64,000 nt of DNA from Nostoc sp. HK-01 (GTDB lineage: Bacteria > Cyanobacteriota > Cyanobacteriia > Cyanobacteriales > Nostocaceae), in assembly GCA_003990705.1 (NCBI GenBank), contig AP018318.1, positions 1,240,001 to 1,304,000 on the forward strand. Reading direction: 5' to 3'. The position numbers and the translations under genes are program-made. Position 1 is the first letter of the stretch; each line of letters begins with the position of its first letter. The notes beneath the pieces were generated by a model. It did no database searches and was not told where the DNA came from. It was given only the letters and a program-made list of their open reading frames with translations. Shown here one piece after another: positions 2,946 to 45,601 of the stretch.

Positions 2946-3866
2946 TCAATTACGATGATTGTTACTGTAGCGAACCCTTGTACCTGCCCAGAGTAACTTC
3001 TCGCGCAGTGTTTGATAATAGGAATTGTTTTCTCGTAAAACAATAAATTTAGCTCGACAGTCAGCCATCCGCACATCAACGCGATGTCCTGGCCAAATTG
3101 AAGTAGACAATACACCATCCATCCACAATTTGGTACTCAAATCATAATCGCCCAACGGCCAAATACTTACCACCACTCCAGGCGGTAATACCAGGGGACG
3201 GCTAGAAAGGCTCATGGGACAAATGGGAGTAATGGTGACGGCTTCCATACCATCGTGCATGATGGGGCCACTTGCCGAAACTGTGTAACCAGTGGAACCT
3301 GTAGGAGTAGAAATAATCAACCCGTCTCCCACATATTGATCGACTACTTCACCATCAATTTCCATTTCTAGAATAGAGGTGATCATGCGATCGGCAGAAG
3401 CGGGTTTGACACAAAATTCATTTAATGAAAGGTAGCGTTCAGTTACTGGTTCTAAGTTTGTGCGATGACCTTCATACACTGCGGCTTGCAGCATCATCCG
3501 CCGTTGGATAGCATAGCGATCTTCAAACAACCGATCCCAAACCTTTTCCGTATCTTGAAATTCATCTACAGACTCGGTTAAAAAGCCCAGATGACCGCCC
3601 ACATTCACACCGAGAATGGGGATACCAGCTGGGGCTAAATGTCTGGCACTAGTTAAAACAGTACCATCACCACCGAGTACCAAAGCCATATCAATTGGTT
3701 GCCCAGAAGATGCCAAAAACACCGGGTAAGGGTTATCTTTTGGCCCGCTTGGCCCCATTAATACATGGCAATCGCGATTTTCTAGTTGCTTGGCACAAAT
3801 TTCTGCCCAGCGTTTACTTTGAGAATCTCGCGCCTTATAAGCAATGATTACCTGCTTGAGTTGCAC
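2946..3866 (-). CDS. nadK: NAD kinase
   Basis: Phosphorylates NAD to NADP with ATP or polyphosphate in the cytoplasm. The 306-aa product is the normal family length. It shows GGDGT at residues 65-69, a conserved NE near 149-150 and DGLIISTPTGSTGY near 181-194, all signatures of the NadK/PpnK fold. The start (MQLKQVIIAYK) lies 6 nt after the ndhE stop, so the two are very probably co-transcribed and perhaps translationally coupled. Cyanobacteria usually carry two NAD kinases; which this one is cannot be told here. Its place at the end of an NDH-1 cluster fits a role in NAD(P)H balance (inference). Confidence 0.95.
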   Translation of the reverse strand: MQLKQVIIAYKARDSQSKRWAEICAKQLENRDCHVLMGPSGPKDNPYPVFLASSGQPIDMALVLGGDGTVLTSARHLAPAGIPILGVNVGGHLGFLTESVDEFQDTEKVWDRLFEDRYAIQRRMMLQAAVYEGHRTNLEPVTERYLSLNEFCVKPASADRMITSILEMEIDGEVVDQYVGDGLIISTPTGSTGYTVSASGPIMHDGMEAVTITPICPMSLSSRPLVLPPGVVVSIWPLGDYDLSTKLWMDGVLSTSIWPGHRVDVRMADCRAKFIVLRENNSYYQTLREKLLWAGTRVRYSNNHRN

Positions 3867-4948: not shown

Positions 4949-4962
4949 TTTTTTTGTCCTCG

Positions 4963-5058
4963 GTCAATGGTCAATGGTCAATGGTCAATGGTCAATGGTC
5001 AATGGTCAAGGGTCAAAGTAATACAGACAATTGACTCTGGACTTTTGACTATTGACTA
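4963..5058. repeat. STRR array of TCAATGG heptamers between ndhI and ndhG
   Basis: Six consecutive TCAATGG-type units at about 4965-5009, followed by a degenerate inverted copy (TTGACTATTGAC) near 5045-5056 that could fold back on the array. Confidence 0.8.
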
Positions 5059-6850: not shown

Positions 6851-7298
6851 GTTTCCGCTCTTTAAGTCAGTTGAAGTGTGAAGTGTGAAGTATGAAGTAT
6901 GAAGTATGAAGTATGAAGTATTTTATACTTCAATCTTTAGCCTTCAGCCTTCAGCCTTTCTGAGATGACTCCTGATTGAAGATTTGTTGCTATATTCCCA
7001 TGCCTAGTATATCGTTGCATGGTTTTCAGTCCCTGTAGCTATACAAGAACTTCTGCTTATAGGTAGGATTGAGATTCGCTATGGGGTTAGTAATAAGCAA
7101 GGGGACTGGGAGCAGGGGGCAAGGGGGAATTTCACCTTGTTTTCCCAGTCCCCCAGCACAAGCAAGCATCAAAAAACTGCCGCTTCCATGCTGGCAACGG
7201 TTATTTGCTGCTTATAGGATTTCTGATTCCCTGAATTGGGGGTTGATGCTGATATTTTTAGTTGCAGGTAGGTGCTATTCTAACGGTTAAGCTGCCAG
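6851..7298. other. 448-nt gltA-ndhA intergenic region with STRR and long-loop inverted repeat
   Basis: About 6870-6920 holds GAAGTGT/GAAGTAT heptamers ending in a small GAAGTAT-TTT-ATACTTC hairpin. GGGGACTGGGA at 7101-7111 and TCCCAGTCCCC at 7143-7153 form an 11-bp inverted repeat around a G-rich loop. The open frame at 7069-7290 on the plus strand only reads through this repeat and is not considered a gene. A promoter for ndhA may lie here, but none could be assigned. Confidence 0.6.
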
Positions 7299-41451: not shown

Positions 41452-42747
41452 CTATAGTCTCTCACCTACTCTACGCCGGATTTTGTGCCAAATTAACCCA
41501 GCCACAATCAATCCTAAACCAACTTGCCAGATAGCAGACTCTACCCAAAAAGCTAGAAATAAACAAGATAACAGACCCATCCAGCCTACCCATATCGGAT
41601 ACAGTCTCTCCGATGCAGTCAGTTTGAGAGAAGCTAAGTTGGTAATTGCGTAATAAATTAAAACACTAAAGGCGCTAAACGACCAAGTAGTTTTGACATT
41701 ACCTAAAAATACTAAAAGTGCGATCGCAATTCCCACCACAATCACAGCCCAGTATGGGGAATTCTGTTCGCGGTTGAGTCTAGCTAAAAATTTGGGCGCA
41801 TCGGCACGGCGACCCATCGCTAATAAAACGCGCGACAAGCCCAAAATCAAGTTCAACAGTACACCCAACATTGCGGTCATTGCACCAACCGCCAACACCA
41901 AAGCTACACTAGAACCCGCCACATTACGGGCGACAACTTCTAGCGGTGCTGCGTTGCTTTGTCCTGTAGCATCACTTAAAAAATCTGCGCCTACAGCCCC
42001 AATACCAACAGTTGCAACAACTATATATAACAGCATTGTCAGCAGCAAACAGAGAATCATCGCTTTGGGAATTGTTTCCCTCGGAGAATGGGCTTCTTCT
42101 CCCATTGTGGCAATACGCCCGTAACCAGTGTAAGCCACAAACATCAACGCGCTGGCGTGAAGTATCGCCCCTGGAGAACTAGTGAAAAAGGGTGTCAAGT
42201 TTGCCATACCCACCGTTGCTGCACGCGGTAGACAAACCAGTACAAATAAACCTAATGACACCAATGTTACTGAAACAATGACTGTATTGGCAGCATTAGA
42301 CCGTCTAATCCCGGTTAATACAATTCCTGTCATCACAACTACTGCTAACACAGCCACAGGTACAAGCCAACTGTTATTCCACCCTAAAATATTCAGGAAG
42401 TAACCAGCAAAACCTAAAGCAGCTGTAGCAGCAGAAGCAATTTTCGCTACCAAAAACATCCAACCTGCGGTAAAGCCAAAAGCCGGAGTCAGATATTTAT
42501 AACCATATTCATAAGTTCCACCACTAACTGCATGATTAGCAGCTAACTGGGCGCTATTCAAACCATTACAAGTGGCAACAATTGCCCCAATTACCACCGC
42601 GAGAATTACTGCTGGCCCAGCTATCCCCACCGCAATTCCAATACTGACAAATACACCCGTTCCGACAATCGAACCCAGCCCCATCAGAGTTGCACCAAAA
42701 ACGCCTAACTCGCGTTTGAGTTGGGTTGGTGAATTGCTAACGGACAT
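41452..42747 (-). CDS. APC-family amino-acid permease
   Basis: 431 aa with about 12 hydrophobic helices. The N-terminal GLGSIVGTGVFVSIGIAVG and the following AGPAVILAVVIGAI are the substrate-site unwound helix of APC transporters; GRIATMGEEAHSPRETIPKA is the conserved loop. A final basic tail (HKIRRRVGERL). Substrate probably an amino acid. Single gene. Confidence 0.87.
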   Translation of the reverse strand: MSVSNSPTQLKRELGVFGATLMGLGSIVGTGVFVSIGIAVGIAGPAVILAVVIGAIVATCNGLNSAQLAANHAVSGGTYEYGYKYLTPAFGFTAGWMFLVAKIASAATAALGFAGYFLNILGWNNSWLVPVAVLAVVVMTGIVLTGIRRSNAANTVIVSVTLVSLGLFVLVCLPRAATVGMANLTPFFTSSPGAILHASALMFVAYTGYGRIATMGEEAHSPRETIPKAMILCLLLTMLLYIVVATVGIGAVGADFLSDATGQSNAAPLEVVARNVAGSSVALVLAVGAMTAMLGVLLNLILGLSRVLLAMGRRADAPKFLARLNREQNSPYWAVIVVGIAIALLVFLGNVKTTWSFSAFSVLIYYAITNLASLKLTASERLYPIWVGWMGLLSCLFLAFWVESAIWQVGLGLIVAGLIWHKIRRRVGERL

Positions 42748-43099
42748 CTTTCATATCTCCTGATTTAGAAAATTAGAGATGTAGCACTCATTGCTGAGGA
42801 TACCACTACAGAAATACAGTAGAAACAAGAAATTTCGCCATGTTTTGATACGTAAAAAAGTCTATTTTGTAAAAAATACATAAAAATAATGCGTTTTTGT
42901 AATTAGTATTATTGGCCGAATGTATTTGTCTTGATACACTCAAAAACTTACCAAGGAAATGCTTATGGGCTTTTAAACTATTTTTATTCAATCAAAAATA
43001 ATCAACTTTATTGTATAAAATGATACTATAAACTATAGTATTTAGACTTACAGTAATGTTACTAAAGGTTTTTAGTAACATTACTGTAAGTCTAAATAA
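42748..43099. other. 352-nt divergent region between permease and porin genes
   Basis: AT-rich; carries promoters for the two divergent genes and ends with the 26-bp inverted repeat at 43041-43096. No other element recognised. Confidence 0.5.
43041..43096 (+). promoter_or_regulatory. Perfect 26-bp inverted repeat in the porin leader
   Basis: Arms at 43041-43066 and 43071-43096 are exact reverse complements (TTTAGACTTACAG... / ...CTGTAAGTCTAAA) around the loop GGTT. The right arm ends three bases before the ATG at 43100. In RNA it would hide any ribosome-binding site; in DNA it could form a cruciform. Confidence 0.93.
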
Positions 43100-44879
43100 A
43101 TGTCTGATACTCTGCGTAATTCATTGGGGATAGCATCAATAGTTATAGGGTTGAATGCGATCGCGGCAACAACTGTATCTGCCAATCCGACAATCCAAAG
43201 CAATGTAATTTCTGAGACCAATAGTGCAGACTCGGAAAACGAGATTCAAGGTCAAGTAACATCCGTATCGCAACTGACAGATGTGCAACCTACAGATTGG
43301 GCATTCCAGGCATTGCAATCATTAGTTGAACGTTATGGTTGTATTGCAGGCTACCCAAATAGCACCTATCGCGGCAATCGCGCCCTGACTCGTTATGAAT
43401 TTGCCGCAGGTTTGAATGCTTGTTTGAATCGAGTTAATGAATTGATTGCCAGTAGTACAGCAGACTTAGTAACTAAAGAAGACTTAGCAACTTTACAAAA
43501 ACTACAAAAAGATTTTGCTGAGACTTTGACAGAAGTGAGAGGCAGAGTTGATGCCTTAGAAAATCGCACCGCTATTTTAGAAAGTCAGCAATTTTCCACC
43601 ACCACTAAATTCAATGGAGAAGTAATTTTTAGTGTGGGAGGGGTGTTTGGTGAAGATAGAGCCATAGACTCTGACCGTTGGCGCAGAATTGAAAGTGGAG
43701 TGAGTACGTACGTACGTACGTACGAGAGCAGCTGAATATGCAGCCTCTGGAGGTCGGCGGTTGCAAGATAATACAATATTTAGCGATCGCATCCGTCTTA
43801 ACTTAGTTACCAGCTTCACAGGTAAAGACCAACTGTTAACCCGTTTAGAAGCAAATAACACCGTATTTTTTAACAATGCCGTTACGGGTACAAACATGAC
43901 CCGCCTTTCTTGGGATGGAGATACAAATAATGAATTTTTGATTGGGAAATTATTGTATCGCTTTCCCGTAGGTGAGAAACTCAACGTTATTGTTGATGCG
44001 ATTGGGGGGGAATTTTACGACAACTTCAACAACTTTAACCCCTTGTTAGCATCAATTCCCTTGGGTTCTATTTCTCGCGCCAGTCGTTTTTCTCCGATTT
44101 ACCGCGCCAGTAACAGTGGTTCTGGGGTTAATTTTGGTACAGGCGTGAGTGTTAACTACAAACTCAGCGACCAGATTACTTTCTCTGGTGGTTATCTTGC
44201 CAGAAGAGCCAATGATCCAACAGAGGGAAGAGGTTTATTTGATGGTAGTTATGGCGCATTAGCACAATTAGCATTTCAACCAAACAAAAACCTGGCATTA
44301 GGATTTACCTACGCCCATTCCTACTTTAGTGGTTCTAATAATGATGTCGCAGTTTCCGGGTTGTATGGTGGTGCTTTTGCAGATCAACCCTTTGGCGCAG
44401 GCCCTGGAAGTACAGCCACAAATCCCCGTGGAATCGCCACTTCTGCCAATTACTATAGTTTTCAAACCAGCTATCGTGTCAACTCAAAATTTGTCTTGTC
44501 TGGTTGGGTGGGGTATACTCAAGCGATCGCTGAAACTACATTTTTACCTAATGTCAATCGTGGCGATAAAGCCGATATCTGGAATTGGGCAGTGACTTTT
44601 GCTTTCCCAGACTTGGGTAAAAAAGGTAACTTAGGTGGGATTATCTTCGGTCAACCGCCAAAAGTTACAGAGAATGACTTTGGTGAAAATGTGCGGACTG
44701 CTACTAGCGCCCGTCGAGAAGACTCTGATACCTCCTACCGTTTAGAAGCATTGTATCGCTACCAAGTTAATGACAATATCTCCATTACACCCGGACTGCT
44801 GGTAATTTTTAACCCCGAACATAACAGCAACAACGATACAATTTACACTGGCATCATTCGGACTACATTCCGATTTTAG
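43100..44879 (+). pseudogene. SLH/OprB-type carbohydrate or iron porin, out of frame at a tetranucleotide repeat
   Basis: Two frames form one gene. The first (43100-43735) has a signal peptide, an SLH domain at ~55-105 (TDWAFQALQSLVERYGCIAG) and a coiled coil (TLQKLQKDFAETLTEVRGRV). The second (open from 43704, to 44879) holds the beta-barrel (DRIRLNLVTSFTGKDQL...), ending in the porin-like final IIRTTFRF. The break is exactly at (GTAC)5 (43704-43723). With four copies, or with seven, the two parts read as one. The current state gives a truncated product. Could be a pseudogene or a phase-variable outer-membrane porin. Hairpin terminator at 44911 follows. Confidence 0.87.
43704..43723 (+). repeat. 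(GTAC)5 tetranucleotide repeat at the porin frameshift
   Basis: Five tandem GTAC units. The preceding SLH/coiled-coil frame and the following barrel frame are out of register by one base; loss of one unit restores the frame. Confidence 0.95.
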
Positions 44880-44910
44880 TAGTCCGCCACACCAACTATC
44901 TCAGCTCATA

Positions 44911-44941
44911 GATACCCGACTTTTTCAAAAAGTCGGGTATC
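44911..44941. terminator. Hairpin after the porin gene
   Basis: GATACCCGACTTTTT and AAAAAGTCGGGTATC pair over 15 bp around a single C. A variant of the hairpins at 2764 and 19466. Confidence 0.6.
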
Positions 44942-45007
44942 TGAACACCTGCAACCTGTCAAATTAAATTCCTCCTCGTTATGGGGAATCGAATATGTTC
45001 TCGCATC

Positions 45008-45601
45008 TCAAGGATTAAGTATTGTAGTTAAAGATAAGATAAATCCTGGTAATACATCTTCACCAGACAACGTAGGTGCTTGTTCAACAGCAAAATTAAT
45101 CACTTCAACTTCAACACCAGGACGATAAATTTCTACTAAAGGTGTAATAGGGTCAATCAACCAACCCAAATTTGCACCATTATCTTGATATTCTTGCATT
45201 TTCGCCCGCAGTTTTTTGAGAGAATCAGTTTGAGAGCGTAATTCAATTACAAAATCAGGGCAGATTGGTGGAAAGCGTCGCCGTTGGTCAGAGGTTAGTA
45301 CATCCCAGCGTTCTTGCTTCACCCAAGAAACATCCGGTGAACGATAAGCACCATTTGGTAAGCGAAATTCCGTGGAGGAATCAAAAACTTTTCCTAACTT
45401 GGCTTGACGATTCCATAAGGTCAATTCGGTTGTGAGTTCAGAATTTTGGATGCCACTTTCGCCGCCAGTTGGGGGCATAATTATCAATTCTCCTTCGGCG
45501 GTGAGTTCGATACGCCATTCATCATTGGCTAGGCATATTTGATAAAACTGCTCGTCTGTCAAACCTACGGCTGGTGGTATGTTGAGGGTGAGAGGTTCCA
45601 T
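45008..45601 (-). CDS. Uma2-family (DUF820) protein, copy 3
   Basis: About 197 aa from the ATG at 45599-45601 (MEPLTLNIPPAVGLTDEQFY); an in-frame ATG at 45703 overlaps the divergent gene and is less likely. LELTAEGELIIMPPTGGESG-type region, YRSPDVSWV, PDFVIELRSQTDSL and MQEYQDNGANLGWLIDP carry the conserved acids. More distant from copies 1 and 2. Divergent from a small membrane protein gene. Confidence 0.87.
   Translation of the reverse strand: MEPLTLNIPPAVGLTDEQFYQICLANDEWRIELTAEGELIIMPPTGGESGIQNSELTTELTLWNRQAKLGKVFDSSTEFRLPNGAYRSPDVSWVKQERWDVLTSDQRRRFPPICPDFVIELRSQTDSLKKLRAKMQEYQDNGANLGWLIDPITPLVEIYRPGVEVEVINFAVEQAPTLSGEDVLPGFILSLTTILNP

Follow-up and report, generated by a model that had tools for sequence, protein, structure and literature searches.

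We use "the window" for the whole 64,000-nucleotide stretch of Nostoc sp. HK-01 DNA that was analyzed, and positions are counted from its first letter. The window harbors a gene for an SLH/OprB porin that is divided between two reading frames, and the change of frame coincides with a tetranucleotide array of five perfect GTAC units (43704-43723) plus 1 further matching base, or 5.25 copies. An earlier note on this DNA had placed the switch between the two porin halves exactly on (GTAC)5, and the position of the repeat and the extent of both frames confirm this. The note had also described the barrel frame as open up to the repeat. Going upstream, the first stop in this frame comes at 43701-43703; from there the frame is open across (GTAC)5 to 44879, so this too was correct. 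The upstream and barrel frames overlap across the repeat. The features of the locus, with strand in brackets, are as follows.

43039..43098 (+): perfect inverted repeat of 28 bp, a 4-base spacer separating its arms (43039-43066, 43071-43098); strain-specific in the set compared
43100..43735 (+): upstream porin frame with the N-terminus, SLH domain, coiled coil and first barrel strand; 211 aa
43704..43723 (+): (GTAC)5 array, site of the frame change; the two nearest alleles carry GTAC once
43722..44879 (+): downstream (barrel) porin frame, OprB positions 57-372; open back to 43704
43543..45091 (no strand): recombined block whose limits, set by informative sites, are approximate; G001/G010 type, in flanks nearer G002/G007

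The upstream piece matched the Pfam SLH family with a score of 29.7 (gathering cut-off 20.8) and positions 1-66 of OprB with a score of 40.1 (cut-off 22.9), while the downstream piece matched OprB positions 57-372 with a score of 155.2 (cut-off 22.9). In an intact relative, L003, which is one protein of 587 aa, the OprB match runs unbroken from 1 to 372 (score 197.5) and SLH scores 28.6. The porin is an OprB (PF04966) protein with an SLH domain, both Pfam families lying above their gathering scores.

L003 was modeled with AlphaFold2 together with 27 relatives, which takes in 28 of the 32 named-genome loci; L016, L019, L020 and L024 were left out for being short, broken or close to the end of a contig. 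The model had a mean pLDDT of 70.6 and a pTM of 0.63, and its barrel has 16 strands. A PDB search with this model placed 4gey, the OprB of Pseudomonas putida, first, with a TM-score of 0.43 by query (0.57 by target). The GTAC codons correspond to residue 202, in the loop that joins strand 1 (168-184) to strand 2 (221-233), and the block pLDDT there is 66-77. Because the N-terminus is taken as periplasmic, the predicted topology would place these codons in extracellular loop L1. In its Pfam SLH and OprB domains, its 16 predicted strands and its best solved match, 4gey, the porin resembles the cyanobacterial SLH/OprB porins (Slr1841 and Slr1908 type; Anabaena Alr0834, Alr2231 and others). It differs from its same-genus relatives at this place, which are intact, in being split into two frames.

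Relatives of the porin and origin of the repeat

Of the 10 other same-genus genomes, 6 (G001, G002, G006, G007, G009 and G010) have an orthologue that covers most of the porin gene, at 79-95% DNA identity and with the G009 match in two pieces. All six orthologues are a single open frame of 574-587 aa. The two nearest alleles, G001 and G010, have one GTAC at the tract site and are exactly 16 bp shorter there, and G002, G006, G007 and G009 have a different, shorter loop in place of the tract. The earlier note had supposed that the number of GTAC units sets the reading frame, and the alleles bear this out, those with one unit forming a single frame and the five-unit allele being split. It had also looked to orthologues for the repeat, counting its lack against a switch; the array proved to be missing in all six.

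Not even a tandem GTAC pair was present in any of these six or in any of the 32 loci found in named genomes, so the tract is not kept at this place in relatives. We scanned for simple repeats around the loop in 63 regions, 47 of which could be anchored and 16 of which lacked an anchor (the window is counted twice, as are some strains), and found tandem GTAC in the window alone. As to other repeats in these regions, L027 has (AACG)3, and L004, L178, L179 and L180 have a run of CCA on the upstream side of the loop. Since the six same-genus orthologues are intact without the array and the nearest two carry one GTAC, these alignments indicate that (GTAC)5 is a strain-specific expansion and not an inherited contingency tract.

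A porin search of 208 genomes of the family gave, among the matches listed, 46 at 66% identity or more, and 3 of these 46 (the window, G169 and G064) were without an in-frame N-terminal half. In G169 the N-terminal frame is lost by one TAA, and in G064, which is L019 of Anabaena sp. UHCC 0187, an insert of ~22 bp breaks the porin shortly past the same loop. Neither has a GTAC tract, which suggests that this porin type is also lost through unrelated lesions. Two further incomplete matches were listed, G039 (from residue 88) and a second copy in G001 (to residue 572).

Some of these loci showed features of their own. The ~22 bp frame-breaking insert of L019 (from NZ_VILB01000003.1), at about 2970-3010 of that locus, sits within a GCGATCGC (HIP1-like) site, and we take it to resemble the small dispersed repeats of Nostocaceae. 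The second G001 porin (L048, G001:C1:3619741-3621432) matches to residue 572 and then continues into unrelated C-terminal sequence, probably because of a frameshift near its end. At 1172-1933 of L024, from Dendronalium phyllosphericum CENA369, the second barrel part stands alone (254 aa) after unrelated sequence.

Rarity of the repeat and a palindrome at the start codon

We scanned 2,002,000 bases of the same genome for repeats (the window and 100 further stretches, 27% of 7.52 Mb, with 5,000 bases masked). Period-4 arrays that reach 3 copies numbered 45 in this 2.0 Mb. Of these, 44 had 3.0-3.75 copies and the remaining one was (GTAC)5, with 5.25. There was no second tetranucleotide array of 4 or more copies in this 27% of the genome. 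In 10 Mb simulated from an order-4 Markov model of the window, 190 arrays had at least 3 copies, 1 had at least 4 and 0 had at least 5. One genome among 217 of the family had (GTAC)4 or longer, as did one among 388 of the class, with 24 genomes common to both sets; over all 581 distinct cyanobacterial genomes the sole match was the porin locus itself. (GTAC)5 is more than a chance word.

Heptamer tracts, known in Nostoc, were commoner in the same 2.0 Mb, with 39 at 3 or more copies, 11 of which had 4 or more. They reach ~8 copies by TRF (for example at 4962-5016 and 6872-6921 of the window) and form the common repeat class in this sample of the genome. The GGGGAYT heptamers of Nostoc, a repeat of another kind, were judged unlikely to have a role in phase variation by the authors who described them (PMC4692102, in the portion of the text available).

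As single-stranded DNA, the (GTAC)5 hairpin is weak (z -2.0), and 7 of 200 shuffles were equally good. In the same 2.0 Mb three short words were depleted, as under restriction avoidance: GGTACC was seen 62 times vs 295 expected, GGCC 1,423 vs 3,812, and CGTACG 29 vs 66. We also considered a gain of GTAC through cutting at CGTACG, fill-in and re-joining, which is speculation only, and set it aside; the context of the one-unit state is AGTACG, which differs from CGTACG.

The start-site palindrome is a new, second strain-specific change beyond the repeat that had been noted earlier. Its 28-bp inverted repeat stops one base short of the ATG at 43100. The 2.0 Mb holds 15 perfect palindromes with arms of 18 or more and spacers up to 12, and none is longer than this one. 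The leader as RNA folds at -37.7 kcal/mol (z -8.8), and a 28-bp stem at the start codon would probably lower translation initiation. Allowing up to 3 mismatches, we found no match to the palindrome in the 10 same-genus genomes. A mobile repeat family at this site was rejected as a candidate, the own genome having no second copy bar a weak 24-base match (E 0.12). We found neither a sigma-70-like promoter nor a terminator in the leader.

The orthologous leaders carry imperfect versions of the inverted repeat. A pairing core, CAGTRAT...ATTACTG, is common to six aligned leaders including that of the window, and covariation is slight, with 1 of 19 predicted pairs altered on both sides. CTGGA, present in the five other aligned leaders, has become CTGTA in the window; the G006 leader is a different sequence without CTGGA, so that 5 of the 6 orthologous leaders carry this motif. 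Relative to the G002 leader (L039), and assuming an L039-like ancestor, the arms of the window are homogenised, with 28 of 30 in-register pairs vs 17 of 30, and the spacer is inverted, as the reverse complement of L039 fits better (score 43) than the forward sequence (35). Homogenised arms with an inverted spacer are described as a template-switch signature in the accessible text of PMC8604942 (also PMC8794818), and the start-site palindrome shows both against the assumed ancestral state. The likeness to quasipalindrome template-switch mutations (PMC8604942, same text) covers the palindrome; for (GTAC)5 we infer slippage at a self-complementary unit. The chance of the top palindrome falling within 700 bp of the array is ~0.0007 (1,400/2,002,000), a figure to be read with caution, as the feature was picked once it had been noticed.

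Selection and exchange between lineages

We calculated dN/dS against the two nearest alleles and obtained 0.041 and 0.070 for the barrel and 0.20 and 0.22 for the N part. Codon changes private to the window barrel numbered 23 synonymous and 3 nonsynonymous, similar to those of intact relatives (15/2 and 13/4), and the barrel frame shows no further decay. These counts point to purifying selection on the barrel up to recent times, and to a gene that worked over most of this branch; because its private changes are like those of intact relatives, the break itself would be recent (or reversible). The bound on its age is loose, since part of the history of the barrel would belong to the donor of a recombined block. 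As to the marks of a pseudogene, selection on the barrel is not relaxed, yet the second strain-specific change sits at the start codon.

We examined 244 informative sites around the gene. Those at ~43543-45091 were almost all of the G001/G010 type, those from 45122 on and at 41600-42200 were mostly of the G002/G007 type, and there was a further G001/G010-like patch at ~42200-42500. The window barrel is 93-98% identical to the G001/G010 types and 80-92% to the G007/G002 types. A region of ~5 kb lying ~4 kb downstream of the porin is 93% identical to G002, 92% to G007 and 87-91% (in pieces) to G001/G010. The block-wise switch of site type therefore points to exchange between lineages, in which the coiled-coil end, loop L1, the barrel and some downstream DNA were swapped in one direction or the other.

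Inactivation, switching or error

We consider it probable that this SLH/OprB porin, one of about ten in the genome, was recently and possibly revertibly inactivated by the strain-specific GTAC expansion. A single GTAC in the loop L1 codons would have grown to five units, a gain of 16 bp that puts the porin out of frame, and the extra units may have arisen by replication slippage or template misalignment at the self-complementary unit. Growth to five units was probably not a single event and would have passed through four units, which are in frame; this would suit an unstable tract. The product would be the 211-aa SLH/coiled-coil fragment, lacking a pore; the start-codon palindrome, as a second product of replication error, would probably lower translation as well, and the tract could slip back into frame. 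In favor of inactivation, the nearest intact alleles stand at one unit and the array is absent elsewhere in the genomes searched. Against it, a reversible switch would equally leave purifying selection up to the present sequence, the tract is at the published repeat cut-off (PMC5953494, available portion), and a Haemophilus pentanucleotide repeat of four units switches at a high rate (PMC2651432, likewise from the available portion).

The earlier note had proposed a candidate phase-variable locus. A true phase-variable porin would switch by (GTAC)n slippage, on at n = 1, 4 or 7 and otherwise off, with the sequenced clone off and with on states that differ by four residues in the length of loop L1. 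Part of this proposal stood, as the unit is non-triplet, the protein is a surface porin, and both halves are otherwise open and seem to have been under recent purifying selection. The five units in this outer-membrane protein just reach the cut-off of 5 or more units for phase-variable tetranucleotides in a PhasomeIt study of Neisseria (PMC5953494, in the text available). The tract also falls in a predicted extracellular loop of variable length, and the barrel appears to have been swapped between lineages, as may happen to surfaces under diversifying pressure. What did not stand was the expectation of a retained repeat, which is lacking in the six same-genus orthologues and the 32 named loci. 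There is also no second tetranucleotide tract of 4 or more copies in 27% of the genome, where heptamer tracts do occur, and the other strain-specific change, at the start site, is also expected to lower expression, something that switching by a repeat alone would not lead one to expect. On balance we regard a true switch as unlikely. We are likewise doubtful that the gene is a newly born contingency locus, in which the tract would toggle both the porin and the length of loop L1 while the barrel recombines and the start region has been template-switched.

Compared with the tetra- and pentanucleotide phase variation of Haemophilus and Neisseria, the locus is alike in that its coding sequence, for an outer-membrane protein, contains a frame-shifting repeat of 5 units, the cut-off number (PMC5953494, portion available). 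It is unlike those systems in that the tract is missing in relatives, is the sole tetranucleotide tract of 4 or more copies in 27% of the genome, is known from one sequence, and lies ~600 bp into the gene; repeats are depleted mid-gene and enriched near the N-terminus, according to the accessible part of PMC4692102. The earlier note knew of no described switch of a cyanobacterial SLH/OprB porin, and our literature search, which covered titles and the openings of abstracts, mostly of papers available without subscription, agreed with it, finding no case of repeat-driven phase variation of a cyanobacterial outer-membrane protein. A further search in the same literature found no paper on cyanophage resistance through a porin frameshift in cyanobacteria. 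PMC4085013 was rejected as a precedent for GTAC phase variation, the term match having come from primer sequences.

A sequencing or assembly error at the tract, with the gene of the strain really intact, would agree with the five-unit state being known from one assembly alone. It is improbable in our judgment, given how well the surrounding sequence matches its relatives. In 164 kb of the genome (5,000 bases masked), 40 of 41 ORFs matched to G002 were full and the porin alone was split; of 47 ORFs matched to G001, 44 were full, 1 was partial, which is unexplained, and 2 were split, namely the porin and one with a frameshift in G001 itself, so that the porin was again the only split belonging to the genome under study. 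These counts take in matches of at least 75%, and the 71 of 112 ORFs (G002) and 67 of 114 (G001) that had no such match are uninformative. The assembly comprises 8 contigs and is 99.98% complete. A general assembly error is unlikely, and we counted out an error-rich assembly as unlikely on the near-complete ORF matches to both genomes. Indel errors, moreover, do not typically add four perfect units cleanly. We give hardly any credence to programmed ribosomal frameshifting at the repeat as a source of full-length porin; the conservation of the barrel frame and its overlap with the upstream frame across the repeat are as such a mechanism would have it, but the six same-genus orthologues do without any shift, and by eye we recognized no slippery motif at the site.

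If the copy number varies in culture, the locus would be an example of a cyanobacterium switching an outer-membrane protein by means of a repeat. If it is constant, the locus would still show a repeat tract soon after it arose, near relatives having kept the one-unit state, and a single gene with two strain-specific signatures of replication error ~600 bp apart.

Under the favored reading of a recent inactivation, loss of this porin may be tolerated because other porins remain, a PF04966 search of the genome having found nine other OprB porins with open frames. Porins control the entry of nutrients and metals, so losing one may affect the physiology studied in the cultured strain. In Synechocystis, 5 of 6 SLH/OprB genes could be disrupted without a growth defect and slr1841 is called essential, while full deletion of slr1908 failed in another study cited there (PMC8707739, accessible text). 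In Anabaena PCC 7120, seven OprB-type porin genes were singly mutated, mostly with metal or salt phenotypes (PMC9705863, part of the text), and sequence variation has been reported in the porin genes of an Antarctic cyanobacterium (PMC9716671, from an excerpt), in a paper whose main text nowhere uses the term phase variation. In the genome analyzed here, a further porin survives as a remnant at G000:C1:2132144-2132299 (L096), where an OprB fragment is interrupted by a TGA in frame.
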